The notes beneath the pieces were generated by a model that made no database searches, had not been told where the DNA came from, and saw nothing but the letters and a program-made list of their open reading frames with translations. A stretch of 50,734 bases of DNA from Desulfatitalea alkaliphila (GTDB taxonomy: Bacteria > Desulfobacterota > Desulfobacteria > Desulfobacterales > Desulfosarcinaceae), in contig NZ_JALJRB010000032.1 of the NCBI RefSeq assembly GCF_022968795.1, positions 1 to 50,734 on the forward strand, read 5' to 3'. Shown here one piece after another: positions 23,601 through 39,445 of the stretch (position 1 is its first letter; every line of letters begins with the position of its first letter). The position numbers and the translations under genes were made by a program.

Positions 23601-23774
23601 CTCCTCGGGGCTGGCGTTGCTGTATTCCGTGACCACGCTGAGGGTCGGGTAGGTGATGTCCGGCATCAGGTCGATGGCCAGACGGGAAAGGGAAACCAAA
23701 CCGAGAATGATGACGATCAGCGCCGCCATCACGCTCATCACCGGCCGCTGAATGGCAAAGGTGGAGATGTTCAT
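20670..23774 (-). CDS. RND efflux transporter, AcrB/HAE1 type
   Basis: 1034-residue inner-membrane pump with the 12-helix RND plan: first helix near the N-terminus ([18 protein letters not shown]), a large periplasmic loop, a helix bundle with [19 protein letters not shown], a second loop, then [21 protein letters not shown] near the C-terminus. Length and motifs fit hydrophobe/amphiphile pumps rather than CusA-type metal pumps, since no Met-rich sites stand out. It is driven by the proton gradient. It overlaps the adaptor gene by 4 bases and so is translationally coupled to it. Confidence 0.92.
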
Positions 23775-25131: not shown

Positions 25132-25512
25132 ATGACTTTCAAAACCTTGGTGCTGATCATGTGCGGCGGCGGCCTGGGGGCCGTCGGTCGCTACGGCGTG
25201 GGTTTGCTGACCATGCGCTTCTGGGGCCACCTCTTTCCCTGGGGCACCATGCTGGTCAATCTGGCGGGCTGTTTTCTGGCGGGTTTGCTTTACGGACTGG
25301 CGGAGCGGGCGCGATGGATCACGCCCGAGCTGCGCCTGTTGCTCATCACCGGCTTTCTGGGGGCCTTCACCACCTTTTCCGCCTTTGCCCTGGAAACGGT
25401 CAACACCGCCCGCGCCGGTTTGCTGCAACAATCCCTGACCAACATCCTGATCAACACCCTGGGCGGCATCGCCCTGGCCTTTCTGGGCCTCTGGCTGGCG
25501 CGCCTGCAGTAG
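25132..25512 (+). CDS. crcB: Fluoride channel Fluc/CrcB
   Basis: 126 residues, four membrane helices. Family motifs are intact: GGGLGAVGRYGVG, WGTMLVNLAGCFLAG and GFLGAFTTFSAFALET, including the Asn and Phe residues that line the fluoride path. It works as a dual-topology dimer exporting fluoride. No fluoride riboswitch was recognised in the 170 bases upstream. It ends 12 bases before the stop of the convergent nine-gene operon. Confidence 0.93.
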   Translation: MTFKTLVLIMCGGGLGAVGRYGVGLLTMRFWGHLFPWGTMLVNLAGCFLAGLLYGLAERARWITPELRLLLITGFLGAFTTFSAFALETVNTARAGLLQQSLTNILINTLGGIALAFLGLWLARLQ

Positions 25513-25527
25513 GCGCATCCGCGCCTA
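25510..25527. terminator. Hairpin between convergent crcB and the nine-gene operon
   Basis: TAGGCGC and GCGCCTA form perfect 7-bp arms with a 4-base loop, covering both stop codons. There is no T-run, so it may only partly end transcription. Confidence 0.45.
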
Positions 25528-25953
25528 CCACCCCTTGCTGACCAGAATATCCCTGACTTCCTGCTCCACCTTGCGCTCCACGAGAATCATCTTGCGTGCC
25601 TGGGCCTTTTTGATTTTTTCGGTCAGTACCTCCAAATCGGCCGGTTTTTCGATGAAATCCATGGCCCCCTGGCGCATGGCCTCCACCCCTTTTTCGATGC
25701 TGCCGTGGCCGGTGAGCAGGATCACTTGCAGCTCGGGGTGTTTGGCCTTCAAGTTTTTAAGCACCTGAAGACCGTCCATCTCCGGCATCATCAGGTCCAG
25801 CACGATGGCGTCGTAGGTGTGATCCTCGGTGATCTTGAGGGCATCGGTGGCCGATGTGGTGCTGTCGACCTCCATGCCGCGGGCGGTCATGCGCTCGCCC
25901 AACAGGTCCAGAAACTCTTTTTCGTCGTCCACCAACAGCACTTTCGTTGTCAT
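25525..25953 (-). CDS. Single-domain response regulator
   Basis: 142-residue stand-alone receiver. It has the acidic pair D9-D10 (LLVDDEKE), phospho-acceptor D53 (VLDLMMP), the switch Thr in LLTGHGS and the Lys in FIEKPADLEVL. A 25-residue basic helix follows. There is no output domain. It is the last gene of the operon, 63 bases after the ChpT-like gene. ATG at 25953 follows AAAGGAGTCACGCC. It probably acts as a phosphate carrier or a protein-binding switch. Confidence 0.88.
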   Translation of the reverse strand: MTTKVLLVDDEKEFLDLLGERMTARGMEVDSTTSATDALKITEDHTYDAIVLDLMMPEMDGLQVLKNLKAKHPELQVILLTGHGSIEKGVEAMRQGAMDFIEKPADLEVLTEKIKKAQARKMILVERKVEQEVRDILVSKGW

Positions 25954-26016
25954 GGCGTGACTCCTTTCGTCGGGTTCCATGAGGGTGTTGTTCAGCGACG
26001 CTTGGTCACTTGATCT

Positions 26017-26679
26017 TCAGGCGGCCATCCGCCGGGGCAGCACCGCGACAATCGCCTGTTGCGCAGTGTCCATCTCCACGCGGGCGGCCAGCAATTCCAG
26101 TAATTCGGTCCATGGGGCCGGCGGAAACGCGGCAGCGGCCGTCGCACCGGCGATCCCCCGGCATTCCAGGTGGACATGATCCTGCACCGAGCGGGCCTGC
26201 AGCGACAACCGCTTGCCTTCGTCGACATGATCCATCGCCCACGCCAGCAGCAGCCAAACCAAATGGAGCAGATGAAAGGGCCGGGTCACGATGCCGATGT
26301 CCGGATCGGACGGGGTGACCGCAACCGCCACCCCCCGGGCATCGGTCAACCGGCGGCAAATGGTCGACAGCATCTGCAGGTTGGCGGTCAAGCCGATCTC
26401 CTTGAACGAATGGTCCACGCTGTGGGCGAACTGGTTCATGTTGCGCACGATGCCGTCGTTGCGTTGGATTTGCCTTTTGATGGTGGCGCCCAACTGATGA
26501 ATGCGCTGTGGGTCCAGCGGGCGCCCTTTGTTCTCCGCCATCAGGGCCAGATCTTCGATCAAGCCGGCGCTCTCGTTCATGATGCTCAGCGTGTTCTTCA
26601 AATCGTGGGAGATGGCGGCCGACATCCGGCCGAAAAAGCGCAATCCATCCACAGTCGTCTCTTTGTTGGATTGTGTCAT
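26017..26679 (-). CDS. Histidine phosphotransfer-like protein (HisKA helices, degenerate ATPase)
   Basis: 220 residues. The phosphoacceptor box is clear (AAISHDLKNTLS, H25) and is followed by the second dimerisation helix. The C-terminal half has the size of a kinase catalytic domain. Where an N-box is expected it reads LLLAWAMDHV, and the DxGxG and GxGLGL loops are absent. This pattern is that of Spo0B/ChpT-type phosphotransferases, which dimerise through a His helix and carry a dead ATPase fold. It lies between two receiver genes, with a 4-base overlap to the one before it. No membrane segment is present, so it should be cytoplasmic. Confidence 0.65.
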   Translation of the reverse strand: MTQSNKETTVDGLRFFGRMSAAISHDLKNTLSIMNESAGLIEDLALMAENKGRPLDPQRIHQLGATIKRQIQRNDGIVRNMNQFAHSVDHSFKEIGLTANLQMLSTICRRLTDARGVAVAVTPSDPDIGIVTRPFHLLHLVWLLLAWAMDHVDEGKRLSLQARSVQDHVHLECRGIAGATAAAAFPPAPWTELLELLAARVEMDTAQQAIVAVLPRRMAA

Positions 26680-27077
26680 GGCGCGCCCTCCTTTTCGGGC
26701 GGCGGCCCATCCGCCGCTGTGATTTCCCTGATCTTGGCCACCAACAGCTCGATGTCCACCGGCTTGAGCAGATAGTACGGCCGACCGGCTTCGGCGGTCC
26801 CCTCCTGGAAACTGGCATAAGAGCCGTGCCCGGTGATGAAAATGAACTTCATGTGCGGGGCCACGCGGACCATCTGCTTTTTGAGTTCGAAGCCGCTCAT
26901 TCGGGGCAGTTTCACGTCCAGCACGGCCACGTCATACCGTTTCTCCCGGAGCAGTGCGACGGCCGCCTCGCAGGTGGACACCCCGTCGGCCTCGATGCCG
27001 CGCAGGGCCAGGCGTTCCACCAGCGCCGTCACCAACTCTTCTTCGTCATCGGCCAGCAGTACCCGTATGGATTTCAT
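26676..27077 (-). CDS. Single-domain response regulator
   Basis: 133-residue receiver: acidic residues D10-D11 (LLADDEEE), acceptor D54 (VLDVKLP), Thr in FITGHGS, Lys in LLKPVDIELL. The tail is short and Pro/Glu-rich. The start overlaps the end of the sensor kinase gene by 32 bases and the end overlaps the ChpT-like gene by 4, so all three should be made together. Confidence 0.88.
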   Translation of the reverse strand: MKSIRVLLADDEEELVTALVERLALRGIEADGVSTCEAAVALLREKRYDVAVLDVKLPRMSGFELKKQMVRVAPHMKFIFITGHGSYASFQEGTAEAGRPYYLLKPVDIELLVAKIREITAADGPPPEKEGAP

Positions 27078-28803
27078 CCCTATCGACCTCCGGTTCCAAT
27101 GGCAGGGTTATGGTAAAGCGGGTGCCCTGGTTCACCTGGCTCTCGACCGTGATGGTCCCTCCCAACTCCTGAACCAAACCATAGGTGATGGAAAGGCCCA
27201 GTCCGGTGCCCCCTTTTTGGGTGCGGGTGGAAAAAAACGGCTCGAACACCCGTTTAATATCCTCGGGCGCGATGCCGCAGCCGTCATCGGCCACGGCGAT
27301 GGTGATCCGTTTGCGCGATGTCCGGCTTCCCTCGATGCGCAAATGGCCACCGTCTTCCACCGCGGCGAAGGCATTGTTCATCAGGTTGAGGAAAATCTGT
27401 TCCAGCTTGCCGCGATCACTCGGGACAGCGGGGATGTCGGGATCCATGGCGACACGGATGTCGATCCCCCGGTACTCGGCCTCCTTGCCCAAAAACCCGA
27501 TCACGTTTTCGATCACCTCCCCGATCTGGACCGGCTGCAGGGAAACGCTGCCCGGCCGGGCGAAACTCAGCAGGCGCCGGGTGATGGTGGCACACCGGTT
27601 GACCGAGTTGAGAATGGAGGCGATTTGGGCCGCCAACTTCTCCATCACCGGTCCGTTGCCACGGCTCTGGAGCAGATCCTGCATCAATCCCGCCTTTTCG
27701 TTGATGATCGCCAGCGGATTGTTGATTTCATGAGCCACCCCGGCCGCCAGGCGACCGATGGAGGCCATCTTGTTGACATACTCCACGTTGTGCAGGGCGG
27801 CCAGGCGGGTCTGGTCGGCGGTGTGGATCTTGGCGACCAAGTAGGTCGAAACCGCCACCGCCACCAGCAGGATGGTCAGCACCCCGGCCACCATGTATGT
27901 GAAGATCTGGCGATGCTCCTTCTGCCAAGGATGCATCAAGACCGATTTGGGTTTGGCCACCATGAGGATGAAGGGGGTGTGATTCAAGTAAGCATACCCG
28001 ATCACCAGCGGTTGGCCCCTGGCGTCCAGCGACTCGAAGACACGGGTGGAGGTCGAGAAGTCGGGGACCGGCAGGGACATCCGTTCGAAAACAGCCCCGA
28101 ACCGCTGGGACGGGGTCTGGAGAATGCCCTCCTGGTTGATGATGAACATGTCGCCGCCGCTGCCCGCCTCGATGTGGACCAGTTCACCATGAAACTGCTC
28201 GGCTTCGATGGTGGCCCGCAGCACAAAGGGCTCCCCCGCAGCGTTCAAATGGCGCACCGCGATGACCAGGTGCGGACTCTGCCGGTACCCCATGAACACG
28301 TCGCTGATATAGGTACCTTGCTCCAGCGCCTGGGCAAACCAGTTTTGTTGGCTGTAGTCGAAGTTGGTCAGCTCGTAGGGCCCGCTGTAAGCCAGTTGGG
28401 TGCCGTGGCGATCGATCAACCCCAAATCGGTGAACCCGCCGAAACTGCCTTGCAAGCTGATTAAAATCCGGTCCAACCGTTCCGGCAGGCGCAACAGCGC
28501 GAAAGCGTTGTCGCGCACCAGGAACTGAAGCGCGTACTGTCGCTCCAGAATCATGAACGACAGGGTGCGACGCGCATTGGACACCAGCCGGGAAGTGCGC
28601 AGGATGATTTCCGATTCGATGGCTTTTTGGGTCACCTGGTAGTCGATGGCCGCCAGGAAGAAAATGGGAATCACCGCCACAACCGTGGTCAGCAACACGC
28701 TCAAGTACCAGATGCGCCGGAAGTTGAACATGTGCTTGTGCAGTCCGGTCGCCACATCCCGGTGGTCCCAAAATTGCGGCTTGATTTTTTGCCAAAAAGA
28801 CAT
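27046..28803 (-). CDS. Membrane sensor histidine kinase (periplasmic Cache-like sensor)
   Basis: 585 residues. Two membrane helices (about 32-53 and 300-322) enclose a 245-residue periplasmic region of dCache type, often a small-ligand sensor. HisKA has GVAHEINNPLA with H358. The ATPase domain has NLMNNAF, DDGCGI and GTGLGLS. The ATG at 28803 is chosen over one at 28809 for better spacing to AGAGGA. It probably phosphorylates the receivers in its own operon, possibly through the ChpT-like protein. The ligand is unknown. A periplasmic anion would fit the neighbouring permease. Confidence 0.87.
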   Translation of the reverse strand: MSFWQKIKPQFWDHRDVATGLHKHMFNFRRIWYLSVLLTTVVAVIPIFFLAAIDYQVTQKAIESEIILRTSRLVSNARRTLSFMILERQYALQFLVRDNAFALLRLPERLDRILISLQGSFGGFTDLGLIDRHGTQLAYSGPYELTNFDYSQQNWFAQALEQGTYISDVFMGYRQSPHLVIAVRHLNAAGEPFVLRATIEAEQFHGELVHIEAGSGGDMFIINQEGILQTPSQRFGAVFERMSLPVPDFSTSTRVFESLDARGQPLVIGYAYLNHTPFILMVAKPKSVLMHPWQKEHRQIFTYMVAGVLTILLVAVAVSTYLVAKIHTADQTRLAALHNVEYVNKMASIGRLAAGVAHEINNPLAIINEKAGLMQDLLQSRGNGPVMEKLAAQIASILNSVNRCATITRRLLSFARPGSVSLQPVQIGEVIENVIGFLGKEAEYRGIDIRVAMDPDIPAVPSDRGKLEQIFLNLMNNAFAAVEDGGHLRIEGSRTSRKRITIAVADDGCGIAPEDIKRVFEPFFSTRTQKGGTGLGLSITYGLVQELGGTITVESQVNQGTRFTITLPLEPEVDRDEIHTGTAGR

Positions 28804-28829
28804 GGCCATCGATCCTCTGAAGCTTTCGC

Positions 28830-30053
28830 CTATTTGTTCTCCAAGTTGCGCCGCATGCGCTCGTTGGCCTGTTTCAGGGTGTCGCTGAGCACCTCGATGT
28901 CCACCGGCTTTTCCAGATAGGCAAAGGCTCCCAGGCGCAAACACTCCTGGCGGTGGCTGTCGGTGCCGTGACCGGTGAGGATCACCACCTCGATTTCCGG
29001 GTGGGTCGCCTTGACCCGCTTGAGCACCTCCATGCCGTCGATGCCGGGCATCTGCAGATCCAGCAACATGACTTCGGGCGCCTCCCGGGCCACCATCTCC
29101 AGTGCGCTCTCGCCGTCGAAAGCCACCGCCGAACCGATATCGCGCATGCCCAATCGCTCGGAGAGGGTTTGCACGAACTCCCGCTCGTCATCCACCAAGA
29201 GCACCTTGGAAGGCCGATCGGCATCGTAGCGGCGGTAGGCATCGCCGCCATTGGCGGTCGGTGCCACGGTAAAGGTGATCGGTTCTTGAATGTTCATGGT
29301 TGCCAAGGCCTCCTTGAGTTCCGCTTCCAGCCGTTCGCGCATCAATACCGGCCGGTCGATGTGCAGCGCGACGGCACCCCCTGCCACGGACACCCCCACC
29401 GCATGGCCCATGGCCGCCAGGCCGGTTTCGATGCGTGCGGCTTTCAGAAAATCGGCGGCCGCCCGGCGGGATGGGTCGGTGGGCTGCACCGCCTCGGCCG
29501 CCAATCCCTTGGTGATCAGCGCCACGGCCCGATCGCCGTCCAGGGTGTGCGTCGGCACCACCATGTCGTACAGGGAGGCCGCCCAGGGATCGTCCTCGCC
29601 CTTGATCGACCGGACCCAGGCGGCCCGCAGGCGGTCCTCGGCTTCAATGCGTCGCAGTGCCTTGGCGCGCATTCCCTTTTTGTCGCCCCCCGCCGCCGCA
29701 ATGCGGTGCGCCGCATCGGCGATCAGGCAAACGTGCAGCACGTGGTCGATGGAGGGGGGCAACAGATGGCTGCTGAATCCGTGCAGCACCCAATCGGTGT
29801 CGCGGCATCGTTCGGCCAGGGCCAGCTTCAACCAGGCCAGGCAGCGCTCCCGCTCGCGGGTGAAGGGGTTGAACACCGAGGGTTCGAGCGCGAAACAGCG
29901 CTGCAATTGTTCGGTCGGCAGCCCCGAGAGGGTGGCGGCCCGCGCCACCAGGTCATCATCGGTGTACAGCGTACGACCTGTTTCGGCCACCAGACGCGCC
30001 GCGATCGCTTCCGCTCCGCAATAGGTGGCGCTGAACAGCGCGATAACAGACAT
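28830..30053 (-). CDS. Cytidylate-kinase-like / BON-like / receiver fusion protein
   Basis: 407 residues. Residues 1-185 look like the cytidylate-kinase-like family (MSVIALFSATYCGAEAIA, DDDLVARAA, LAERCRDTDWVLHG, HVLHVCLIAD). The P-loop, however, lacks the GK[ST] lysine. Residues about 200-265 resemble a short BON-type fold. Residues 283-407 are a full receiver with D288-D289, acceptor D332 (LLDLQMP) and Lys in YLEKPVDIEVL. The N-terminal part is similar along its length to the protein at 39529. It may bind a nucleotide or ligand without transferring phosphate. ATG at 30053 follows AGGAGGAGGCC. Confidence 0.72.
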   Translation of the reverse strand: MSVIALFSATYCGAEAIAARLVAETGRTLYTDDDLVARAATLSGLPTEQLQRCFALEPSVFNPFTRERERCLAWLKLALAERCRDTDWVLHGFSSHLLPPSIDHVLHVCLIADAAHRIAAAGGDKKGMRAKALRRIEAEDRLRAAWVRSIKGEDDPWAASLYDMVVPTHTLDGDRAVALITKGLAAEAVQPTDPSRRAAADFLKAARIETGLAAMGHAVGVSVAGGAVALHIDRPVLMRERLEAELKEALATMNIQEPITFTVAPTANGGDAYRRYDADRPSKVLLVDDEREFVQTLSERLGMRDIGSAVAFDGESALEMVAREAPEVMLLDLQMPGIDGMEVLKRVKATHPEIEVVILTGHGTDSHRQECLRLGAFAYLEKPVDIEVLSDTLKQANERMRRNLENK

Positions 30054-30064
30054 GGCCTCCTCCT

Positions 30065-32776
30065 TCACGCTTGCCCTTGAATCGATGGTGACGATCGTTG
30101 CTGTGGGCCGGCCGCCGGCTGCTCCGGCGGCCTCCCGAACCGCTCCTCGATATCACTTTTGATCCGTTGGCGATAGTGCTCGACCATGGCATTGCGGGAC
30201 ATGACCATATCCAGTTGACGGGTGTGCATGGTCAGATAACCGACGATTTGCAGGCGGTGGCACATCACTTCCATGGGAAAATCTTCGAACCGGGCGCGCA
30301 GGGCATCCTCGGTGAGGGAGACGGCGAAGCCCTGCTCTTCCAGGATTTCGGCGATCAGTTGAATGCGCCGCATCTTGCGAAAGTCATCGGCCGCGCCGCC
30401 CTTGAAACGGAAAATGATGTAGTTCTCCGGCACCCGCTCGCTCACATAGCTTTCCACCGTGGAAAAATGAAAACCGAAGCGGGACATGAGGCTGCAGTAG
30501 TTTTTGGCGATCATGAAATAGTTACGCTGGGCGTAGCTGGAGCGCACCCCGGGCACCAGGGCGGTGTTGCGCGTGGCCTGGAACATGACCGACATGAACC
30601 CCTTGCCGTCGATGGGCGGCGGTCCCTGCCAGGGCACCTTGGTGATGCCCTGCCACAAGGCCTGCATGGGGATGGAAGCGATGTTTTCCAGGCGCACTTT
30701 GGGCCCCGTCACCTCGTCGCTGAAGCCGTCGTCCAGATTGAGAATCCACCACTGCATGGGCACATCCACCACCAGCTGCTTGCTCGATCGCATGGGAAAG
30801 GCGTTGTCGCGCCCGAAGGCGAACATCTCCTGCACCGCCTTTTCGTGGCAGTACCGGATGATATCGTGCAGACTGGTGCAGTGGGCCGGCGCGAAGGTGG
30901 GCGCGTCCGGATCGAGCAGGGTCAGGGGCGCGATGTGGGGCATGATCTGCGCCAAAGTATCGAACACCGGCGTTCCCGCCATCACGTGGGGCGCACGCAG
31001 TCGGCCGCGCAGCAGGGCGTCGACCTTGCCGTCGTGGATTTTCAAACCATCGGCATCCACGGTCACCGTTTGCCCGTCGGCCAGGCGGCTCATGGCCCCC
31101 TCGACCCCGAACAGGGCCGGCACCTGGTACTCGCGGGCCACATTGGCCAGATGACTGCTGACACTGCCGTGTTCGGCGACAACGGCGGCGGCGCGATGGA
31201 GCACCACGGCATACCCCGGCAGCGATTGCTGGACCACCATCACCTCGCCATCGGCGAAACGCATGGTGTCGGCTTCCCGCTTGAGCACGCGCACCGGCCC
31301 GGCCCCCACCCCACGGGCTGCGGTCACCTGGCCGTGAAGCAGCACCGCATGAACGGCGCCCTCCTCCCCTGCTGCGGCATCGTGCGCCACCTCCGCTTCG
31401 GACACCGGTGCGGCATCCGCATCGCTCGCTTGCGCTTCGGCCGGGGCCACGCTCAGGGGGCGGCACTGCAGCAACACGATGTGTCCGTCGCTGTCGATGG
31501 CCCACTCGATGTCCTGGGGCCCGCCGCAGTAATTCTCGATGTCCACCGCCATACGGGCCAGTGCCGCCGCCTGGTCGTCATCGATGGACGGCGCATGGCT
31601 TTGATCCTCCAACAGTTCGTTGCGGCAGATGCCCTCCTCGGCCAGGCAGCGATAGGCCACGGTTTTGGCACCGATGCGGCGCTCCCGCACACGGTGGGGC
31701 GCCTGGCGCGCGACCTCGAAATGGTCCACGGCGCTGCGGCCGTCCACCACCATCTTGGGCAACCCCCACACGGCGTTGATAATGATGGTGTCCTCCCGGA
31801 TGTCCAAGGGGTTGCGGGTGTAAACCACGCCCCCGCAGACCGCATCGACCATCTGCAGGCAGCCGACACACATGACGATGTCTTCGTCGCGCAGGCCGCG
31901 ATGGAAGCGATAGGTCATGGCGGTGGCGCCGAACTTGCCGGCCACCACCTCCTTGAAGGCATCGATCAGATGCCCGGGCCGCACATTGAGCAGGGATCGA
32001 TATTGTCCCGCGAAAGAGGCGCCGGGCAGATCCTCGTTCACGCCGCTGCTGCGCACGGCCAGGGCCAGTGGCCCATCGACCTGCTTGCGCAGCTTGTCCA
32101 CGGCCGCCTCGATGGCGGCAACCACCTCCGGCGGCACCTCCGCTGCCATGACCAGCTGCTGCAACACCGAACTGAGCTCGTAGAGCCGGTCCAACGCTTC
32201 TCCGTCGTGGCTTTGGATGCGCTGATGGATCTCCTCTTGCAGCCGCCGGTGCTGCATGAAGCGATGATAGGCCGCCGAGGTGATGACGAAACCGGCCGGC
32301 ACGGCGATATCCAACTGTCGGGCGATATCGCCCAGGCTGGCCATCTTCACCCCGGCCACCTCCGCGTGGCGCCGATCGATGGCCGTCAGGTCGAGCACCA
32401 GTTCGGCATCTTCGCCGGGCACCGCGCTTTCCAGCAGCGGGGAGATGGTTTCCTGCAGGCGGCCGAAGGTGTCGTACAACGCCTGGTGACGACCGCCGGA
32501 AAGGGTGTCCAGATGTTGAATGATCTGGTACACGTTGACGAAAAGCAGGGCGCAGCGCGAACGAATGAAACTCATCCCGAAGGGCTTGTTGCCCGCCTGG
32601 ACGCTCTCCATCTCCGAAATGGTCTTCAAGGCCTTGTCATTGGCGTTGAGCAGTCGCCGGAACTGCATATAGCGCAGTTTGAAGGCCCGCCGCAGTTCCT
32701 CGTCGTCCTGCGCGGCCTCCGGGAGCCCGGAAACGCCCTTGAAGGCATCGATGATATTGCGCAAAATTCGCAGCAT
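30065..32776 (-). CDS. PEP-synthase-like protein: ATP-grasp and swivelling His domain, no PEP barrel
   Basis: 903 residues. After 120 helical residues comes a pyruvate-phosphate-dikinase-type ATP-grasp domain (about 140-445): AVRSSGVNEDLPGASFAGQY, GGVVYTRNP, QDIEWAID and LLQCRP. A swivelling phospho-His domain follows (about 475-620), with H542 in SVSSHLANVAREYQVPAL. The PEP/pyruvate TIM barrel of true PEP synthases is missing. The last 280 residues form a domain I do not recognise. The arrangement recalls rifampicin phosphotransferases and other ATP-dependent dikinases acting on unusual acceptors. It sits between the permease pair and the kinase-like/receiver fusion, with gaps of 18 and 11 bases. 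Confidence 0.75.
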   Translation of the reverse strand: MLRILRNIIDAFKGVSGLPEAAQDDEELRRAFKLRYMQFRRLLNANDKALKTISEMESVQAGNKPFGMSFIRSRCALLFVNVYQIIQHLDTLSGGRHQALYDTFGRLQETISPLLESAVPGEDAELVLDLTAIDRRHAEVAGVKMASLGDIARQLDIAVPAGFVITSAAYHRFMQHRRLQEEIHQRIQSHDGEALDRLYELSSVLQQLVMAAEVPPEVVAAIEAAVDKLRKQVDGPLALAVRSSGVNEDLPGASFAGQYRSLLNVRPGHLIDAFKEVVAGKFGATAMTYRFHRGLRDEDIVMCVGCLQMVDAVCGGVVYTRNPLDIREDTIIINAVWGLPKMVVDGRSAVDHFEVARQAPHRVRERRIGAKTVAYRCLAEEGICRNELLEDQSHAPSIDDDQAAALARMAVDIENYCGGPQDIEWAIDSDGHIVLLQCRPLSVAPAEAQASDADAAPVSEAEVAHDAAAGEEGAVHAVLLHGQVTAARGVGAGPVRVLKREADTMRFADGEVMVVQQSLPGYAVVLHRAAAVVAEHGSVSSHLANVAREYQVPALFGVEGAMSRLADGQTVTVDADGLKIHDGKVDALLRGRLRAPHVMAGTPVFDTLAQIMPHIAPLTLLDPDAPTFAPAHCTSLHDIIRYCHEKAVQEMFAFGRDNAFPMRSSKQLVVDVPMQWWILNLDDGFSDEVTGPKVRLENIASIPMQALWQGITKVPWQGPPPIDGKGFMSVMFQATRNTALVPGVRSSYAQRNYFMIAKNYCSLMSRFGFHFSTVESYVSERVPENYIIFRFKGGAADDFRKMRRIQLIAEILEEQGFAVSLTEDALRARFEDFPMEVMCHRLQIVGYLTMHTRQLDMVMSRNAMVEHYRQRIKSDIEERFGRPPEQPAAGPQQRSSPSIQGQA

Positions 32777-32794
32777 ACGCCCTGCCCGTTGTCG

Positions 32795-33481
32795 CTAATG
32801 CCCCAGGTTCATGCCCCAGCCTTCAAACAGGTACATGATGCCGAACCCGTACCACAAAGTATAAACCACGTAAAAGACCAGGGAAAGCAATACGATACCG
32901 ATCTTGTTGCTGATGCTCTCGGCCGTGATGCCGTAGTAGTTGTAGGCGGTCTCCACCGCCTTGGCCTGCACCAGGTTCACCAGCTTGGCCGCGTCGAAGC
33001 GCCGCTGTTTGTTCAGCTCGTACTCCAGGGCCTTGAGCCCGCTCCACCAGTCGTACATCACCTGCCGCTCGTTGTAGCCGTGCTTGGCCAGTATCCGCGC
33101 GGCGTCGTTTGCATACATGATGTCCGCATCCGCCAGGGCCTCGTTCAACAAAGCGTTGAGACTGCCGCTGATCGCCACCTGTTTGCCCGTGGCGGCGGCG
33201 GCCATGCCCTGGCCGGTCAACAAACCCCGAAAGCGTTCGGCTTGCTCCGATGTCTCCATGCTGACGGTCACTGCAAGGGGCGCGCCCTGGTAGGCGTCCA
33301 CCGACGCTTGGGCATTGGGAATGTAGTAGGCCGAGCCCTTGGAGATGGAGTTGTAAAGGTTGTCCATGTACGCCATGGGATTGTGCCCGTCCAAGATGGG
33401 CATGAACATCAGCACCAACACCACGGCGAAGCTGATCATCATTCCCACACCTTTATACATAGCCTGTTTCCTTGTTTGCAT
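32795..33481 (-). CDS. Membrane protein of unknown function, partner of TauE/SafE-like permease
   Basis: 228 residues, not recognised. One N-terminal membrane helix (GVGMMISFAVVLVLMFMPIL) is followed by a periplasmic or cytoplasmic region of about 140 residues with predicted alpha/beta character. A C-terminal helix (IGIVLLSLVFYVVYTLWYGFGIMYLF) ends the protein. The soluble part includes VTVSMETSEQAERFRGLLTGQG, which could be a small ACT/heavy-metal-type ferredoxin fold, though this is a guess. It begins 5 bases after the permease gene, so a fixed partnership is likely. ATG at 33481 follows GCAGGAGTGATCGCC. Confidence 0.6.
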   Translation of the reverse strand: MQTRKQAMYKGVGMMISFAVVLVLMFMPILDGHNPMAYMDNLYNSISKGSAYYIPNAQASVDAYQGAPLAVTVSMETSEQAERFRGLLTGQGMAAAATGKQVAISGSLNALLNEALADADIMYANDAARILAKHGYNERQVMYDWWSGLKALEYELNKQRRFDAAKLVNLVQAKAVETAYNYYGITAESISNKIGIVLLSLVFYVVYTLWYGFGIMYLFEGWGMNLGH

Positions 33482-33486
33482 GGCGA

Positions 33487-34785
33487 TCACTCCTGCGACT
33501 TGAGGGTTTTCAGATTGGCGAGAAAGGTGCCGATCACCCACACCCCGAACCCGCCGATGACAATGAAGAAGGCCCAGATGCCGAACACCTCCAGGGCATG
33601 GCCGGTGGCCTTGGAGATGGGCAGGATCTCCATCTCGCCCAACTTGCCCGGCAGGGCGAAGATGCGATTGACGAAACCGGCCAGCACCGCCATGGCGTAG
33701 AAGCCGCGAATGGTGATGCCCTTGACCACCTGGGTCACCATGGCCCCCACCTGGATGCCCACCAGCGAACCGATGAGCATGCCCATGGCCAGCGTGTAAA
33801 AGATGAAGCCGTAGATGGCGTATTGGCTGATGGAGGCATACCCCGCGGTGAAGATGATCTGGAAGATGTCGGTGCCCACAGTGGTCATGGAGGAGACCCC
33901 CAGCACGTAGACAAAGATGGGGAAGGTGAGAAAACCGCCGCCCACGCCCATGATACCGGCGGCCAATCCCACAAGGGCGCCGCTGGCCACCAGAAAGACC
34001 CAGGAGACGGAGCGGCCGCCGGGGGTGATATCGTGATCGAAGCGGATCATGGGAGGAATCTTCATCCCCTGGATGCGGTGGGGCAGATTGCCCAGCTCGG
34101 CGCCCTCGTCCCGGCCGCCGTGCACCGCGCAGGCATCTTCCGAACCCTCGACCGCGGTCTGGGCCTTGCGGCACTTGAGGTAGTCCAACATGGCATACAT
34201 GCCTAGAAAACCCAGCATCAGCGAATAGATGGTGGTGATGAAGGCATCGCTCATCACCGGGTTGATCTCATAAAAGAAGCGGTTGACCATCCCGCCCACC
34301 GTGGCGCCCAGGATAGCGCCGATGAGAAACACCACCGCCAGGATGGCCGACACATTGCCCAGCTTGCGGTGAATGACACTGCCCATGATGGCCTTGGCGA
34401 ATATGTGGAACAGATCGGTGCCCACGGCCAAAATGCCCTTGATGCCCGCGCTCATCAATGCGGGGGCGATCACGAAACCGCCGCCGGCGCCGATGCAGCC
34501 GGTAATCAGGCCCGCCCCCAGACCGATGAGGATGGAGACCAGAAAGATGCCGAGGGAATAAAACGCCGGACTGTAGGCCTTTTTCCCGCCCAACACGTCC
34601 GGCAGCATCTCGCTGATCGGTTCGGCGAAAGCATAACCGCCGATAATCACCGGCACCAGGAACAGTGCCAACAGCAAAAGGCGCCTGCGGTCCCCCAAAA
34701 TGGTTTTGGATACGTCCAATTCCCATTTGGCGTGGGCGACGGCACCGGCCATCATGAATCGACCCAACTGTTTGAAAAATCCCAT
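33487..34785 (-). CDS. TauE/SafE-family sulfite/sulfonate-type permease
   Basis: 432 residues with the two internal repeats of the family: GAGGGFVIAPALMSAGIKGILAVGTDLFHIF and GVGGGFLTFPIFVYVLGVSSMTTVGTDIFQIIF. About eight or nine membrane helices are present, with a hydrophilic loop of 60 residues between the halves. Members export sulfite, sulfoacetate and other organosulfur anions or take up sulfate-like anions; the substrate here is not determined. In a sulfate reducer a sulfur oxyanion is the first guess. ATG at 34785 follows AAAAGGAGCAAGCA. It is the second gene of the operon. Confidence 0.83.
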   Translation of the reverse strand: MGFFKQLGRFMMAGAVAHAKWELDVSKTILGDRRRLLLLALFLVPVIIGGYAFAEPISEMLPDVLGGKKAYSPAFYSLGIFLVSILIGLGAGLITGCIGAGGGFVIAPALMSAGIKGILAVGTDLFHIFAKAIMGSVIHRKLGNVSAILAVVFLIGAILGATVGGMVNRFFYEINPVMSDAFITTIYSLMLGFLGMYAMLDYLKCRKAQTAVEGSEDACAVHGGRDEGAELGNLPHRIQGMKIPPMIRFDHDITPGGRSVSWVFLVASGALVGLAAGIMGVGGGFLTFPIFVYVLGVSSMTTVGTDIFQIIFTAGYASISQYAIYGFIFYTLAMGMLIGSLVGIQVGAMVTQVVKGITIRGFYAMAVLAGFVNRIFALPGKLGEMEILPISKATGHALEVFGIWAFFIVIGGFGVWVIGTFLANLKTLKSQE

Positions 34786-34847
34786 TGCTTGCTCCTTTTC
34801 TATCGCTGTTTTCCGGAAAATCCGGTTTACGTGCGCAATCGGGGCGG

Positions 34848-35237
34848 TCACTGTTGTTGCAGCATCAGGGCCCGCTTTTCGCAGGCGTCTTGCAGTCGGA
34901 AAGAGAGTTCGTCGATATCCACCGGCTTGATCAGATAATCGAAGGCCCCCTGCTGGATGCCCTCCAGGGCCGCCTCGGTGCGGGCGTGCCCGGTCAGCAG
35001 AATCACCTCCGGCGGATCGTCCCCTTTTTTGATTTCCCGCAACACCGCCAAACCATCCATGCCGGGCATCATCACGTCCAGTACCACCCCTTGGAAGCGG
35101 TGCTCACGGAGCAGCGCCAGTGCACCGGCGCCATCGGACGCAACGGCGATGTCGAACCCTCGCAACCGAAGCCGTTCGGCCAGGCTCTCCACGAACTCGG
35201 CTTCATCGTCGACCAGCAGAATGTTGAATTTGCCCAT
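34848..35237 (-). CDS. Single-domain response regulator, first gene of the operon
   Basis: 129-residue receiver: D10-D11 (LLVDDEAE), acceptor D54 (VLDVMMP), Thr in LLTGHAR, Lys in YLIKPVDIDEL, with a short helical tail. It has no output domain. ATG at 35237 follows AAAGGAGAAAGGCC. The tail and the KPVDI block match those at 26676 and 28830 closely, so these receivers probably arose by duplication. Confidence 0.88.
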   Translation of the reverse strand: MGKFNILLVDDEAEFVESLAERLRLRGFDIAVASDGAGALALLREHRFQGVVLDVMMPGMDGLAVLREIKKGDDPPEVILLTGHARTEAALEGIQQGAFDYLIKPVDIDELSFRLQDACEKRALMLQQQ

Positions 35238-35296
35238 GGCCTTTCTCCTTTAAAGGACGCCTCCTCCCGGTGGCCTGGAAAGCGCCGAATATCTTT

Positions 35297-35314
35297 ATAG
35301 TGAGTACTCAGTAT
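35297..35314. promoter_or_regulatory. Probable TetR-type operator at the operon promoter
   Basis: ATAGTGAGTACTCAGTAT: a perfect 10-bp core palindrome (TGAGTACTCA) with partly symmetric flanks. It overlaps the -10 and the expected transcription start, so binding would shut off the operon. The TetR gene at 35535-36116 lies just upstream and is the obvious candidate ligand-responsive repressor. Confidence 0.65.
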
Positions 35315-35342
35315 AATAATCAGACCCAAAAATGAAAGTCAA
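35313..35342 (-). promoter_or_regulatory. Sigma-70 promoter of the nine-gene operon
   Basis: On the minus strand: TTGACT (5 of 6), 18 bases, TATTAT (5 of 6). Transcription would start near 35306, within the palindrome, leaving a leader of about 70 bases. Confidence 0.7.
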
Positions 35343-35534
35343 CAGGAAAAACGACCCTCGCAGAGGCCCCTTGGCATTGTAAATTTAATCAACTATTTCA
35401 GTATCTTTTTATAATCCATGAGGAAATATCGGGCGGGCGACCGGTAAATTTTCCGGCCGTTGGCTCGGGCCGTCGCGACCCGCAAGGGAGTTGCATGAGT
35501 GGAAAAGTTGCTGCCGGGGACGGCAGCCGATCGG

Positions 35535-36116
35535 TTATGCCTTGCGCAGCATGCGGCGGCAGTTGATCACCAACTGTTCATAAAGGGCGCTGGCATCATA
35601 TAAATTGAAGGTCTTCAGACGGGCAATGCCGTCGACCATGGCAAAAACGATGAAGGCGGTCTTGCCGGCCGGCAGGTCTGCGATGGAGCCGTCGGCCTGG
35701 CCGCGGGCGATGGCCTTTTGGAAGGTGTCCAGGATGAAATTGTAGATGCCGGAAAATTCCTTGCCGAACACGGGGTTGCCCAGCGCCATTTCGTAGGCGT
35801 CGTATCGGTGCAGGATCAGAAACAGCTCTTCGCGCGTGCCGACCAGGTAGAGATAGTAAAAGATGCTGCCCTCGATCATCTCCAATCCGCTGGCAAATCG
35901 CTTTTCGGCAAAAAAGTCCTCGAAGGCGCCGATGAGCGTTTGCCGCAGGTTTTCCAGAATGGCCAGGAACAGCTCTTCCTTGGTTTTGAAATGGTAATAG
36001 ATGGTGCCTTCCGCCACCCCCGTCAGCTTGGCCAACTCGGCGATGGCGGTGTTGCGGTAGCCCTTTTCGGAAAAGAGGCGCGTAGCGGTTCGCAGAATGT
36101 CGTCTTTCTTGGACAT
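35535..36116 (-). CDS. TetR/AcrR-family transcriptional regulator
   Basis: 193 residues. The N-terminal helix-turn-helix reads ATRLFSEKGYRNTAIAELAKLTGVAEGTIYYHFKTKEELF. The ligand domain is aromatic-rich (SIFYYLYLVGTREELFLILHRYDAYEM), which suggests a hydrophobic or acyl ligand as in FadR/AcrR-type members. ATG at 36116 follows AGGATCCGTTC. It lies 297 bases upstream of the nine-gene operon in the same direction, with the palindrome at 35297 between them, and probably represses it. Confidence 0.87.
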   Translation of the reverse strand: MSKKDDILRTATRLFSEKGYRNTAIAELAKLTGVAEGTIYYHFKTKEELFLAILENLRQTLIGAFEDFFAEKRFASGLEMIEGSIFYYLYLVGTREELFLILHRYDAYEMALGNPVFGKEFSGIYNFILDTFQKAIARGQADGSIADLPAGKTAFIVFAMVDGIARLKTFNLYDASALYEQLVINCRRMLRKA

Positions 36117-36466
36117 GAACGGATCCTGTGGGTCTCGATGGGTAGTTACAAACGCCCCCTGCAATGGATGTACCGCATATTGCCACGGATCGAGACGGTT
36201 GTCCACCAATCGGGCACCGGAATTGCTACACCCTTATATTGTAACGCTTGAAGGCCATGGTAAGGCCGCAAAACCCCTTTTTCGCACCCGCACACGTCCG
36301 CAATCGGTTGTCCGTCGGGCGCGCTGTTTCAAATTGAAACATATTTGTGGCCGCCAATCCCGGCCCGTTACAACATCGCAACACTTGTCCCGGGAGAATT
36401 TGATTCATTCTGAAACACGCACTGCGCATTCGCGGCGCCGAGGGGAAAAACACAAAGGAGTGGCCC
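36117..36466. other. 350-base divergent region between TetR and receiver genes
   Basis: No gene seen. It carries the first two TGTTTC/GAAACA-type palindromes (36325-36341, 36401-36417). I found no clear sigma-54 (GG-N10-GC) site and only weak sigma-70 candidates on either strand. Confidence 0.5.
36325..36417. promoter_or_regulatory. Two 17-bp TGTTTC-N5-GAAACA-type sites upstream of a receiver gene
   Basis: Site 1 (36325-36341) is TGTTTCAAATTGAAACA, symmetric except at the centre. Site 2 (36401-36417) is TGATTCATTCTGAAACA, a weaker copy with the same 17-base layout. They lie 142 and 66 bases before the receiver ATG at 36467. The same layout recurs at 36934 and 36968. Confidence 0.6.
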
Positions 36467-36877
36467 ATGCAACCGTTGGTCATGGTCGTGGACGATGAAG
36501 AGAAGGTCCGTAAATACCTGTCGCGCCTTTTGCAAAAGCGCGGTTTCACGGTGGAAACGGCGGCCGATGGCGAAGCGGCCCTGGCCCTGCTGGCGGAGCG
36601 CGATTTCGATGTGGTGCTGCTGGATGTGCTCATGCCGGGCCTGGACGGCATTGCCGTGCTCAAGGAGATAAAGCAGCGCCGCCCCCTGACCGAGGTGATC
36701 ATTCTCACCGGCAACGCCTCGGTCAACACCGGCGTGGCGGGCTTGCAGCACGGTGCCGTCGATTACCTGCTCAAGCCGGTGAACCTGGACAACCTCATGG
36801 TGTGCATGGGCGAAGCCCTTGAACAGCGCCGTTTCCGTCAGAGCCAACCGCCCCATCGGCCGCAAAAGGGGGGGTAG
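36467..36877 (+). CDS. Single-domain response regulator
   Basis: 136-residue receiver: D9-D10 (VVDDEEK), acceptor D53 (LLDVLMP), Thr in ILTGNAS, Lys in YLLKPVNLDNL. The tail is Pro/Arg-rich. There is no output domain. ATG follows CAAAGGAGTGGCCC. Operator-like palindromes stand both upstream and downstream, so this gene and the transporter operon after it are probably controlled by the same factor. Confidence 0.88.
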   Translation: MQPLVMVVDDEEKVRKYLSRLLQKRGFTVETAADGEAALALLAERDFDVVLLDVLMPGLDGIAVLKEIKQRRPLTEVIILTGNASVNTGVAGLQHGAVDYLLKPVNLDNLMVCMGEALEQRRFRQSQPPHRPQKGG

Positions 36878-36895
36878 CGCGCCATTGGTGGATGT

Positions 36896-36984
36896 GTGTT
36901 TCCGAAACACGCTTTGGCGACAAACCCAAACCGTGTTTCAAAATGAAACTGCCGTACGCCACGGATCTGTTTCGGATTGAAACT
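36896..36984. promoter_or_regulatory. Three TGTTTC/GAAACA-type sites upstream of the USP-SLC13 operon
   Basis: Site 3 (36896-36910) is GTGTTTCCGAAACAC, a perfect 7+1+7 palindrome with a shorter centre. Site 4 (36934-36950) is TGTTTCAAAATGAAACT. Site 5 (36968-36984) is TGTTTCGGATTGAAACT, followed directly by another half-site. The sites are spaced by 34-38 bases (about three helical turns or slightly more), as in activator or repressor arrays. Confidence 0.65.
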
Positions 36985-37046
36985 GTTTCAACCGGAAGTA
37001 GGGCCATGATTTACCCAACCATTGGAATTTGTAAGGTTTGCCGACA

Positions 37047-37062
37047 TGGAATGCTTATTGAA
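37047..37062 (+). promoter_or_regulatory. Possible sigma-54 promoter
   Basis: TGGAATGCTTATTGAA resembles the -24/-12 pattern (TGG at -24, G at the right place, TTG at -12). The -12 has GA where GC is expected. It lies 62-150 bases downstream of the three palindromes at 36896-36984, the usual enhancer distance, which is the main reason to note it. Confidence 0.3.
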
Positions 37063-37169
37063 ACTGCCATGGTGGCCCGAGGTCGCGCATGGGGTCGACC
37101 GGCACGGCGCAATACCGCATCGCATCGGACGATCCGGCCAAGGCAGCGACCGTTTTTGTTTCGGGAGGA

Positions 37170-37655
37170 ATGGTGACCGCCTACTTGATACCCATAAAGG
37201 AACTTTCGCCTCCGGCCTTGGCGGCGGTGCGTTTCGCCTTGGAGTTCGGCAAGCGCAACGGCGGGGTCTTCTACTGCCTCTTCGTGACGGAGCGTGACTC
37301 TGCCGGCAGTGCTGCCGGGGCCCTGGATGCCGCCGGCCCTCCCCGGCCGGCCGACGCCAAGCCCTCCGATCCGCTGCGCCGGACCCTGGAAGGCCAAATC
37401 GCCCAGGCGCGGGCGGACGCGGGTTTGCAGATCGAATGTGTGCAACGCCAGGGGGATTATTTGCAAGAGGTGCGACAGTTCGTGCGGGATCACCACATTG
37501 CCGAAATCATCCTGGGTTTGCCCGAGGATGCCCGCGACAGTCGGGCCAAACCCCATCCCGATGCCCTGCTGCTGCACCAGTTGACCCACTGCCGCATCTT
37601 AACCGTCAAACCCAAAACAAAGGAACCCGACCCCTCATGGAGCCCATCGTCCTGA
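37170..37655 (+). CDS. Universal-stress-protein-like protein
   Basis: 161 residues. It opens like a UspA fold (YLIPIKELSPPALAAVRFALEFGKRNGGVFYCLFV). A linker rich in Ala/Pro follows, then the second half with GLQIECVQRQGDYLQEVRQFVRDHHIAEIILGLP and a short HCRILTVKP end. The usual ATP motif G-2x-G-9x-G(S/T) is not complete. USP-like domains often sit with transporters as regulators. Start is uncertain: ATG 37170 is chosen for its Usp-like beginning, though GGGAGG is close to it. ATG 37089 in frame has GAGG at good spacing. The end overlaps the SLC13 gene by 19 bases. Confidence 0.65.
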   Translation: MVTAYLIPIKELSPPALAAVRFALEFGKRNGGVFYCLFVTERDSAGSAAGALDAAGPPRPADAKPSDPLRRTLEGQIAQARADAGLQIECVQRQGDYLQEVRQFVRDHHIAEIILGLPEDARDSRAKPHPDALLLHQLTHCRILTVKPKTKEPDPSWSPSS

Positions 37656-39445
37656 ATACGGAAATCGCCCTTGTACTCGGCATCATCGCACTGGCGGTGT
37701 TTCTCTTCATCGTGGAATGGATCCGGGTGGATATGGTGGCCATACTGATGACCGTTTTGCTGCCGATCCTCAACCTGGTCACTCCCAAAGAGGCCTTTTC
37801 CGGCTTCAGCAGTAACGCGGTGATCTCCATCATCGCCGTGATCATCATCGGCGCCGGACTGGACAAGACCGGCTTGATCAACCGGGTGGTCCAGCCGGTG
37901 GTGAAAATCGCCGGCAACAGCGCCTCCCGGGTGGTCATCGCCATGGGCGCCACGGTGGCGATCATCTCCAGCTTCATGCAGAACATCGGCGCCGCCGCCC
38001 TGTTTCTGCCGGCCATCCGCCGGGTCGGCAAATCCATGCATCTGCCTTTGTCGCAGATGTTGATGCCCATCGGTTTTTGCGCCATTCTGGGCGGCACCAT
38101 CACCCTGGTGGGATCGAGTCCCCTGATCCTGCTCAACGACCTGCTCCTGCCATATCAACTGAAGCCCTTCGGATTGTTTGACGTCACGCCGGTCGGACTG
38201 GCCCTGGTGGGTGCCGGCATCGCCACCTTCATTCTGTTCGGCCGCTTCGTGCTGCCCAAAGAAAAACCCGACGCCCGCAGGGAAGCAATGCCCACCCAAG
38301 CCACCGCCTACGAGGATATCGGCGAGGTTTTCGAGCTGCAGGCCCCGGCCGATCTCACCGCTTTCCGCGAGCCGATCTCCGTAAAACAGCTGCGCGACAC
38401 TTACCAGGTCAACGTAGTGGCCTACGCGGGGCGGGATCGTTTGAAAATGATGACCCTGCCCCCCGACTTCGAGATCCGGGACAACAGCCACCTGGCCGCC
38501 TTCGGCAAGGCGGACAACGTCCGCCGTTTGGCCGATGACCATGGCTTCACCGTCAAGGAGGGGCTCCAATTGTTCAAGGAGGACTTTTCCCAGGACCGCT
38601 TCGGCATCCTGGAGGCGGTGGTGGCGCCCCGTTCCGAGCTGATCGGCAAAACCCTGCGGGATGTCCACTTCTGGGAGCAGTACCAGGTCAACCCGGTGGC
38701 CCTCTACCGGGCCGACCAAGTGTACCTCAGCGGCCTGTCCAGCATGGTGCTGCGCTCGGGGGACTCCCTGGTGCTGGAGGGCAGTTGGGACCGGTTCAAG
38801 ATTCTGGAGGAGAAGCACAACTTCATCTTCACCACCCCGGTGGGCGAAGTGCTCAAGCCTGAAAAGGCCCTGGCGGCCGGTTTCTGGCTGGCCGCCGCCC
38901 TGGTGATGATCATCGTTTTCAAAATGCAACTGTCCGTCTGCCTGATGACCGGTGCCTTTGGCATGATTTTGTTCCGGGTGCTCTCCATCGACGAGGCTTA
39001 CCAGGCGGTGGATTGGCGCACCGTGTTTCTGCTGGCCGGCCTGATTCCCCTGGGCATCGCCACCCAGAAGTCAGGGGCGGCCGGATGGATCGCCCAGACC
39101 GTACTCGGGCTCATCGGCGATGTCTCGCCCATCGGCCTGTTGACCGCCATCGCCGTGTTGTCCACCTTCTTCACTTTGGTGATTTCAAACGTGGGGGCCA
39201 CCGTCCTGCTGGTGCCCCTGGTGGTGAACATGGCCCTGGCCACGGGCACCGATCCGCGCATGGCCGCCCTGGTGGTGGGGTTGGCGACTTCCAATTCCTT
39301 CATATTGCCCACCCACCAGGTCAATGCACTCTACATGGGGCCGGGCCGGTACCGCAGCGTCGATTTCATGAAGGCCGGGGGCCTGATGACGGTGGTCTTC
39401 ATCGTGGTGCTGATCGCCATGCTGGTGCTCTTTTACGGCATATAG
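37637..39445 (+). CDS. SLC13/DASS-type permease with two RCK_C (TrkA_C) domains
   Basis: 602 residues. The membrane halves surround a cytoplasmic insert of about 180 residues with two RCK_C domains. The first is poorly conserved; the second is clear (VVAPRSELIGKTLRDVHFWEQYQVNPVALYR...SGDSLVLEG). The second half has FTLVISNVGATVLLVPLV and ATSNSFILPTHQVNALYMGPGRY, typical of the family. The first half carries the matching SSFMQNIGAAALFLP. Members move sulfate, dicarboxylates or similar anions, usually with sodium. In sulfate reducers this branch often takes up sulfate, but the substrate is inferred only. ATG at 37637 overlaps the USP gene. Confidence 0.85.
   Translation: MEPIVLNTEIALVLGIIALAVFLFIVEWIRVDMVAILMTVLLPILNLVTPKEAFSGFSSNAVISIIAVIIIGAGLDKTGLINRVVQPVVKIAGNSASRVVIAMGATVAIISSFMQNIGAAALFLPAIRRVGKSMHLPLSQMLMPIGFCAILGGTITLVGSSPLILLNDLLLPYQLKPFGLFDVTPVGLALVGAGIATFILFGRFVLPKEKPDARREAMPTQATAYEDIGEVFELQAPADLTAFREPISVKQLRDTYQVNVVAYAGRDRLKMMTLPPDFEIRDNSHLAAFGKADNVRRLADDHGFTVKEGLQLFKEDFSQDRFGILEAVVAPRSELIGKTLRDVHFWEQYQVNPVALYRADQVYLSGLSSMVLRSGDSLVLEGSWDRFKILEEKHNFIFTTPVGEVLKPEKALAAGFWLAAALVMIIVFKMQLSVCLMTGAFGMILFRVLSIDEAYQAVDWRTVFLLAGLIPLGIATQKSGAAGWIAQTVLGLIGDVSPIGLLTAIAVLSTFFTLVISNVGATVLLVPLVVNMALATGTDPRMAALVVGLATSNSFILPTHQVNALYMGPGRYRSVDFMKAGGLMTVVFIVVLIAMLVLFYGI

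Follow-up and report, generated by a model that had tools for sequence, protein, structure and literature searches.

A candidate anion-uptake operon of Desulfatitalea alkaliphila that joins a TauE-family permease to a receiver relay and a PEP-synthase-like dikinase

Introduction

Why should a single transport operon carry both a His-Asp phosphorelay and a dikinase? This question is raised by nine genes in a 50,734-nucleotide stretch of the sulfate-respiring bacterium Desulfatitalea alkaliphila (GCF_022968795.1, contig NZ_JALJRB010000032.1, positions 1-50,734 of the forward strand; hereafter the window). They encode a TauE/TSUP-family permease, a small membrane protein that we call TM2, a dikinase resembling phosphoenolpyruvate (PEP) synthase and pyruvate phosphate dikinase (PPDK), a dCache sensor histidine kinase, a histidine phosphotransfer protein, three stand-alone receivers (RR1 to RR3) and a cytidylate-kinase-like (CMK) domain fused to a receiver. 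A sequence-only reading of the window had proposed that phosphoryl flow gates or energises the permease.

We observed a conserved gene content, a statistical link to the adenosine 5'-phosphosulfate (APS) pathway, a sensor family shared with other anion transporters and one fusion of a receiver to a DASS-family transporter; this fusion makes gating of TauE by phosphoryl flow more plausible. With confidence a little above even, we interpret the operon as encoding regulated uptake of a sulfur oxyanion, with sulfate as the likeliest substrate, under the control of an anion sensor and of the adenylate state.

Results

The permease and TM2 recur together in Desulfobacterota

We searched 297 Desulfobacterota genomes, one sample of the phylum, and found TM2 relatives in 72. 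A scan of a genome collection gave at least 537 stretches with TM2 relatives, and 80 of these were retained. In each of the 72 TM2 genomes, the window included, we scanned the TM2 locus for neighbouring genes. Three loci at a contig edge were set aside; each of the 69 testable loci that remained has a TauE gene immediately upstream of TM2, in the same orientation. Of 62 testable loci, 40 have a dikinase gene within 3.5 kb downstream of TM2 and 48 have one at any position. A kinase with the operon-type sensor is found no more than 9 kb away in 32 of the 72. This core association of TauE, TM2 and dikinase exceeds chance.

The sequence-only reading had proposed a search for Desulfobacterota neighbourhoods uniting permease, dikinase and CMK-receiver fusion, and named rare co-occurrence as the result that would count against it. 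Permease, TM2, dikinase and relay do recur together in sulfate reducers, but the fusion is rarely with them: it was found near TM2 in 5 of 71 loci, on the operon strand in 3. Matches to it are widespread and more often located elsewhere in the genome. Given this count, the fusion was rejected as a core gene. The complete nine-gene set was seen nowhere else among the scanned loci. Eight of the nine genes occur at L097 in the window order and, rearranged, at L051 and L052; RR2 was not found at any of these three.

The assignment of the permease to the TauE/SafE type was borne out by a score of 118.9 bits against PF01925 (cut-off 32.6). No relative was found in the PDB (phmmer, E ≤ 0.01), and the longest reading frame opens at a GTG 66 bases before the ATG at 34785. 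TM2 had been described as a two-helix membrane protein of no known family, and indeed it matches nothing in Pfam or NCBIfam at E ≤ 0.01 and has two hydrophobic segments (residues ~12-30 and ~194-212), which flank an alpha/beta domain. Its basic N-terminus suggests that the alpha/beta domain is periplasmic. An AlphaFold2 model of TM2 (predicted local distance difference test score, pLDDT, 92) matched no PDB fold at E ≤ 0.001, and PDB sequence and profile searches likewise returned no relative.

TauE and TM2 form a single open frame of 677 residues in one metagenome assembly (L131, 1038-3071), a possible natural fusion. A second apparent fusion, at L154, was rejected as an artefact of a run of N. 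Two tandem TauE-TM2 pairs were seen at L059 (G163, contig C28), in a genome that is 82% complete and gave no match in the search for the dikinase C-domain. In a nitric oxide table of PMC5701242, the adjoining genes Ddes_2104 and Ddes_2105, for a membrane protein and a 460-residue transmembrane protein, are both listed as increased; by size likeness these might correspond to TM2 and TauE.

TM2 and the dikinase follow aprA

We compared the distribution of both proteins with that of dsrA and aprA, both present in the window genome. dsrA was counted at E ≤ 1e-50 and found in 144 of the 297 genomes. aprA was counted in 120 genomes, that is 128 matches at E ≤ 1e-50 minus 8 weak ones below the curated cut-off; 3 truncated matches below that cut-off were kept. 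TM2 genomes carry dsrA in 68 of 72 cases, and the dikinase C-domain was found in 107 genomes, 102 of them with dsrA; the 4 and 5 remaining genomes are 62-80% complete. Among dsrA genomes, those with aprA have TM2 in 67 of 115 cases and the dikinase in 98 of 115, while those that lack aprA have them in 1 of 29 and 4 of 29, respectively. Counted by taxonomic family, the dikinase is present in 38 of 44 families with dsrA and aprA and TM2 in 27 of 44, compared to 0 of 7 families with dsrA only for either protein. APS formation and reduction release pyrophosphate (PPi) and AMP, and for this reason the distribution is suggestive of a tie between the dikinase and the APS pathway.

aprA is dispensable for thiosulfate or sulfite reduction. 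Since TM2 and the dikinase follow aprA and not dsrA alone, a function confined to sulfite or to thiosulfate was rejected as first choice. The same counts bear on the idea that the cell is protected by export of sulfite or another sulfur anion through the permease. TM2 genomes do have the sulfite pathway, and sulfite export is the activity of the characterised TauE (as cited in the available parts of PMC5840216 and PMC3949148). However, genomes with dsrA and without aprA would be expected to handle sulfite as well, and only one of these 29 has TM2. The sensor that the operon shares with DASS-linked kinases, described below, further suggests control of uptake. We regard export as the least probable of the readings considered here.

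A dikinase with a conserved C-terminal domain

The dikinase consists of an ATP-grasp half (residues 139-452), a swivelling His domain (508-576) and a C-domain (~590-903). Like PEP synthase and PPDK, it has kept the key residues of the first two, including the catalytic His: K144, R242, D422, E424, Q437, R439 and H542 are at least 95% conserved among 91 aligned sequences. We take the roles of these residues from general knowledge of PPDK and PEP synthase, on which basis the ATP half should be competent and form a phospho-His. Unlike those enzymes, and in line with the sequence-only reading of an ATP-grasp/swivel-His protein that lacks the PEP barrel, it has no barrel match: residues 590-903 have no Pfam match at E ≤ 1, including to the PEP/pyruvate barrel family, which we take to be PF02896. 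The best PDB profile hit of the C-domain (E 0.08) is not a meaningful relative, and its model (pLDDT 85) found no PDB fold at E ≤ 0.001. Among 59 aligned sequences the C-domain has 20 invariant positions, as expected for a domain that would bind an acceptor or be catalytic. The operon copy is the single C-domain match in the window genome at E ≤ 1e-10. TM2 and the dikinase C-domain, which stand at the centre of the system, thus match no described family in these searches.

We also picked 18 further dikinase loci by hand. In these, dikinase-family genes lie with a TauE-family permease at L209, L216, L218, L220 and L225, the permease being of a short TauE type at L216, L218 and L220; with DASS at L210, L211, L214 and L220; and with an operon-type sensor kinase at L215, L216, L218, L220, L223 and L224. 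None of the three was recognised at L212, L213 (a short contig), L217, L219, L221, L222 and L226. At L219, the dikinase-family protein is part of a frame of ~1830 residues, perhaps a larger fusion.

A shared sensor and a receiver-transporter fusion

The window genome has four matches to the Cache sensor of the operon (E ≤ 1e-5). The other three sensor kinases (C45:161062, C45:41016 and C18:54213) each lie within one gene of a DASS-family (PF00939) gene. Two receivers fused to CBS domains are found in one of these clusters and an adenosine-specific kinase beside the DASS gene in another. In the third (L205:7021-9096, C45 ~38.0-40.1 kb), the DASS protein is 691 residues long and has an N-terminal receiver (residues 16-126) that precedes the transporter domain. 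Relatives of this receiver-DASS protein occur in 3 further genomes of 30 in the same family, one of them split across two contigs; no TauE-receiver fusion was found among the scanned loci.

Sensor residues G181, Y186, G188, W202, R221 and H225 are invariant among 94 aligned sequences (94 of 98 matches, short ones dropped, with some near-duplicates between the two locus sets). Numbering follows the longest frame, from GTG 28944; 45 is subtracted for ATG 28809. The invariant Arg and His would suit an anionic ligand. Given this receiver-DASS fusion next to a kinase that has the operon-type sensor, receivers can probably act directly on transporters of this class.

These data bear on the possibility that relay and dikinase are a separate energy-state signalling cassette, merely co-expressed with transporters and without action on the permease. 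Many TauE-TM2 pairs stand alone, and the hand-picked set includes dikinase-family genes away from recognised transporters, as such a cassette would predict. On the other hand, relay and dikinase genes turn up repeatedly together with transporter genes of three kinds, the window genome itself encodes a receiver-transporter fusion, and permease, receiver and dikinase mutants of Desulfovibrio share a phenotype (available part of PMC4001038). We consider an independent cassette improbable.

The CMK-receiver fusion and the phosphotransfer protein

The kinase-like/receiver fusion was recognised from the start, and both a Cytidylate_kin2 domain and a receiver were found, but the P-loop is lost. In all 6 of the aligned copies that are linked to a receiver, of which 5 are complete fusions and 1 is truncated at the end of a contig, a Cys occupies its position (further fused-length matches lie outside this alignment). 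By comparison, an S-K-G-K motif is retained in 3 of 3 aligned CMK relatives without a receiver. An active cytidylate kinase was rejected on account of the lost P-loop. The Cys is a possible redox or sulfide-sensing residue. The middle domain of the fusion appears BON-like by eye, without family support.

The phosphotransfer protein had been called ChpT-like. Like ChpT, it has a phospho-acceptor His on a dimerisation helix and a decayed ATPase domain: the H-box His is kept and the kinase G-boxes (the ATP boxes) are lost. Unlike ChpT, it has no Pfam match to PF10090, which we take to be ChpT's family, nor to HATPase; HisKA alone was found, at 21.7 bits against a cut-off of 26.9. Judged by these motifs, it is a histidine kinase whose ATPase half has decayed.

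Relation to described systems

The sequence-only reading knew of no described system with such a set. This was not supported, as two kinds of published cluster come close, and the operon is a variant of both: the Desulfovibrio nitrate cluster and the DASS/SulP sulfate-uptake clusters. None of the papers that we read describes the set itself, subscription papers being mostly outside that reading. The cited papers were available in part, and the comparisons below refer to those parts.

The nitrate cluster (DVU0251-DVU0245, Dde_0597-0605; PMC4001038) likewise unites a TauE permease, a small companion, a histidine kinase, a stand-alone receiver and a PPDK-like protein. Disruption of the permease, DVU0250 (hypothetical), receiver or PPDK-like gene by insertion gives mutants that grow alike with or without 100 mM nitrate. 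Its companion is likened to TM2 by published description and not by sequence. It differs from the operon in a PtxB-like protein and a tyrosine phosphatase, neither of which is among our nine genes, whereas the CMK-receiver fusion and the phosphotransfer protein of the operon are not among the genes listed in the available account. For this cluster, Korte et al. 2014 put forward a thiosulfate transporter that is leaky (PMC4001038). Applied to the operon, the permease would import thiosulfate and leak nitrate. G20 mutants are mildly sick on thiosulfate, cited in that paper as unpublished data, which supports the proposal. However, the published permease gene is shorter (963 bp vs 1299 bp in the operon), and the protein may thus be another TauE type. 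Moreover, among dsrA genomes TM2 is nearly restricted to those with aprA, which thiosulfate and sulfite reduction do not need. Thiosulfate import is unlikely in our view, though the likeliest of the alternatives to sulfate-type uptake.

A short TauE, a companion with a DUF4881 domain, a kinase and a receiver occur in this order at L089, a sister type of the operon, and a short TauE with DUF4881 and dikinase occurs at L039, L197 and L199. By size and gene order, the sister type may correspond to the published nitrate cluster. No DUF4881 gene was found in the window genome. We treated DUF4881 and TM2 as different proteins, set apart by their Pfam results (the companion matches PF16222, TM2 has no match).

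A 2025 study (Sci Adv, PMC11887813) describes DASS/SulP sulfate-uptake clusters of Desulfobacteraceae, proposes that sulfate is the effector they have in common and raises, for CBS proteins, the speculative possibility of a further layer of control by APS or the energy state. The operon resembles these clusters in combining a transporter with a Cache sensor kinase, receivers and a proposed adenylate or energy control. Its dCache_1 kinase was compared with the three DASS-adjacent kinases of the window genome and is homologous to them. In contrast to the published clusters, its transporter is of the TSUP family, its receivers have no output domain, a CMK-like domain replaces CBS and a dikinase is added. 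The terms TauE, TSUP and dikinase are absent from the available main text of that study, and SulP was not found in the window genome.

A two-gene TSUP operon of D. vulgaris, DVU0132-DVU0133, is under two-component and sigma-54 control (PMC4641369). Likened by description, it may be the TauE-TM2 pair of that organism. It shares with our operon the TSUP permease under two-component control, but not the sigma-54 control: no -24/-12 site with up to 2 mismatches was found at 35238-35500, ahead of the window operon. A review of 44 sulfate-reducer genomes found TSUP proteins in all 44 and judged their function unpredictable; in 3 of the 44, TSUP-type proteins are the sole candidate sulfate transporters (PMC5840216).

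Operon layout and neighbouring genes

The reading frames agree with the earlier description of nine genes on a single strand, in the order given and with short or negative gaps of at most 63 bases. All nine frames, from 35237 down to 25525, are intact and without internal stops (Table 1). With ATG starts, the intergenic gaps in operon order are 62, 5, 18, 11, 20, -32, -4 and 63 bases, and this spacing makes expression as one unit likely. By Pfam, with three stand-alone receivers and the CMK-receiver fusion, no WalR-type regulator with an output domain is encoded among the nine genes. A single promoter had been proposed. A sigma-70 consensus match does lie ~76 bases ahead of RR1, near a terminator-like stem, but it is a prediction only: it is the top of 7 promoter-like sites, where 3.4 are expected from shuffled sequences.

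Table 1 Features of the operon and of the adjacent plus-strand group in the window
Feature	Position	Strand	Support
RR1, stand-alone receiver, first gene, 129 aa	34848..35237	-	PF00072, E 4.5e-29
TauE/TSUP-family permease, 432 aa from ATG 34785	33487..34785	-	PF01925, E 3.7e-34
TM2, partner membrane protein, 228 aa	32795..33481	-	no Pfam match
PPS, PEP-synthase/PPDK-like dikinase, 903 aa	30065..32776	-	PF01326 PPDK_N, PF00391 PEP-utilizers
CMK-receiver fusion (cytidylate-kinase-like domain, middle domain, receiver), 407 aa	28830..30053	-	PF13189 Cytidylate_kin2, PF00072
dCache sensor histidine kinase, 587 aa from ATG 28809	27046..28809	-	PF02743 dCache_1, PF00512 HisKA, PF02518 HATPase_c
RR2, stand-alone receiver, 133 aa	26676..27077	-	PF00072, E 1.4e-21
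Histidine phosphotransfer protein, 220 aa	26017..26679	-	HisKA, E 2.1e-4, under cut-off
RR3, stand-alone receiver, 142 aa from ATG 25953	25525..25953	-	PF00072, E 9.5e-31
Predicted sigma-70-type promoter, TTGACT-18-TATTAT	35342-35313	-	10/12 consensus matches; prediction only
Neighbouring RR, Usp and DASS/CitMHS-TrkA_C transporter genes	36467..39445	+	Pfam

A TetR regulator gene (35535-36119, minus strand; Pfam) lies directly upstream of the operon. Downstream of it are RND-type efflux pump and membrane-fusion genes (20670-24955, minus strand), recognised from their translation, and a CrcB-type gene of the fluoride channel family (25132-25512, plus strand) stands tail to tail with the operon end. 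Just past the TetR gene, the plus-strand genes at 36467-39445 make up a further anion-transporter group, which includes a receiver of its own. At L214, a DASS protein 73% identical (best local match) to the window DASS at 37436-39445 is found together with Usp, receiver, CMK and dikinase, and the plus-strand group may therefore share the physiology of the operon.

Discussion

In the interpretation that we favour, regulated uptake of a sulfur oxyanion, we infer the substrate, the direction of transport, the protein targets of the receivers and the sensing of nucleotides. TauE would be the permease and TM2 a membrane partner that presents a periplasmic domain. The Cache kinase would sense the external anion and pass phosphate to a receiver, from there to the phosphotransfer protein and on to the single-domain receivers. 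As these have no DNA-binding part, they would act by protein binding, to the permease or TM2, to the dikinase or to other members of the relay. The dikinase would convert ATP to a His-phosphate with release of AMP, and the CMK-like domain on its receiver probably has no catalytic role and serves as a nucleotide or redox sensor. Both would be placed to report the adenylate state, which would matter because sulfate activation gives PPi and AMP. The activity of the transporter, beyond its synthesis, would then be set by the anion sensor, through bare receivers, and by the adenylate state.

A bolder version assigns the dikinase itself a central role, as an adenylate-coupling enzyme of sulfate respiration and not a PEP synthase, so that AMP and PPi set the anion transporters, bare receivers gate them directly, in keeping with the receiver-DASS fusion, and TM2 is the gate. 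The dikinase would interconvert ATP and AMP (with Pi or PPi) through the His-phosphate and hand the phosphoryl group to an acceptor bound by its C-domain; its targets would be TauE-TM2, short TauE and DASS, and uptake would be gated by its own activation products. We give this version a low probability, slightly below that of the independent cassette.

Several observations weigh against regulated sulfate uptake by the operon. TM2 is missing from 48 of the 115 genomes with dsrA and aprA, and the co-occurrence counts correct only in part for shared ancestry. A receiver stands directly ahead of TauE in 31 of 64 testable loci, less than half, and a downstream dikinase is missing in 22 of 62; TauE-TM2 therefore seems able to work without either. 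A kinase of 480 residues or more lies within 9 kb at 40 loci, and 8 of these 40 lack the operon-type sensor. The window genome has many DASS-family genes that could carry sulfate. The exporter precedent cited above points the same way, as does the sulfite import proposed for an Archaeoglobus TauE homologue (available part of PMC3949148). In the Desulfovibrio nitrate cluster, the mutant of the last gene, DVU0245, is still nitrate-sensitive, and the DVU0250 mutant did poorly in a pooled test, unlike the single mutant (available part of PMC4001038). Finally, we found no transport, phosphorylation or expression data for the operon genes.

Sulfate respiration starts with the uptake of sulfate. One type of TSUP permease now has a constant partner, together with a dikinase family suggestively tied to genomes with the APS pathway. 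The receiver-DASS fusion suggests that two-component relays directly set transporter activity. A link between adenylate state and anion uptake, hitherto a speculation for CBS proteins in the available text of PMC11887813, becomes testable. The system also bears on the nitrate control of souring, as loss of related genes leads to nitrate resistance in the published Desulfovibrio data available to us (PMC4001038).

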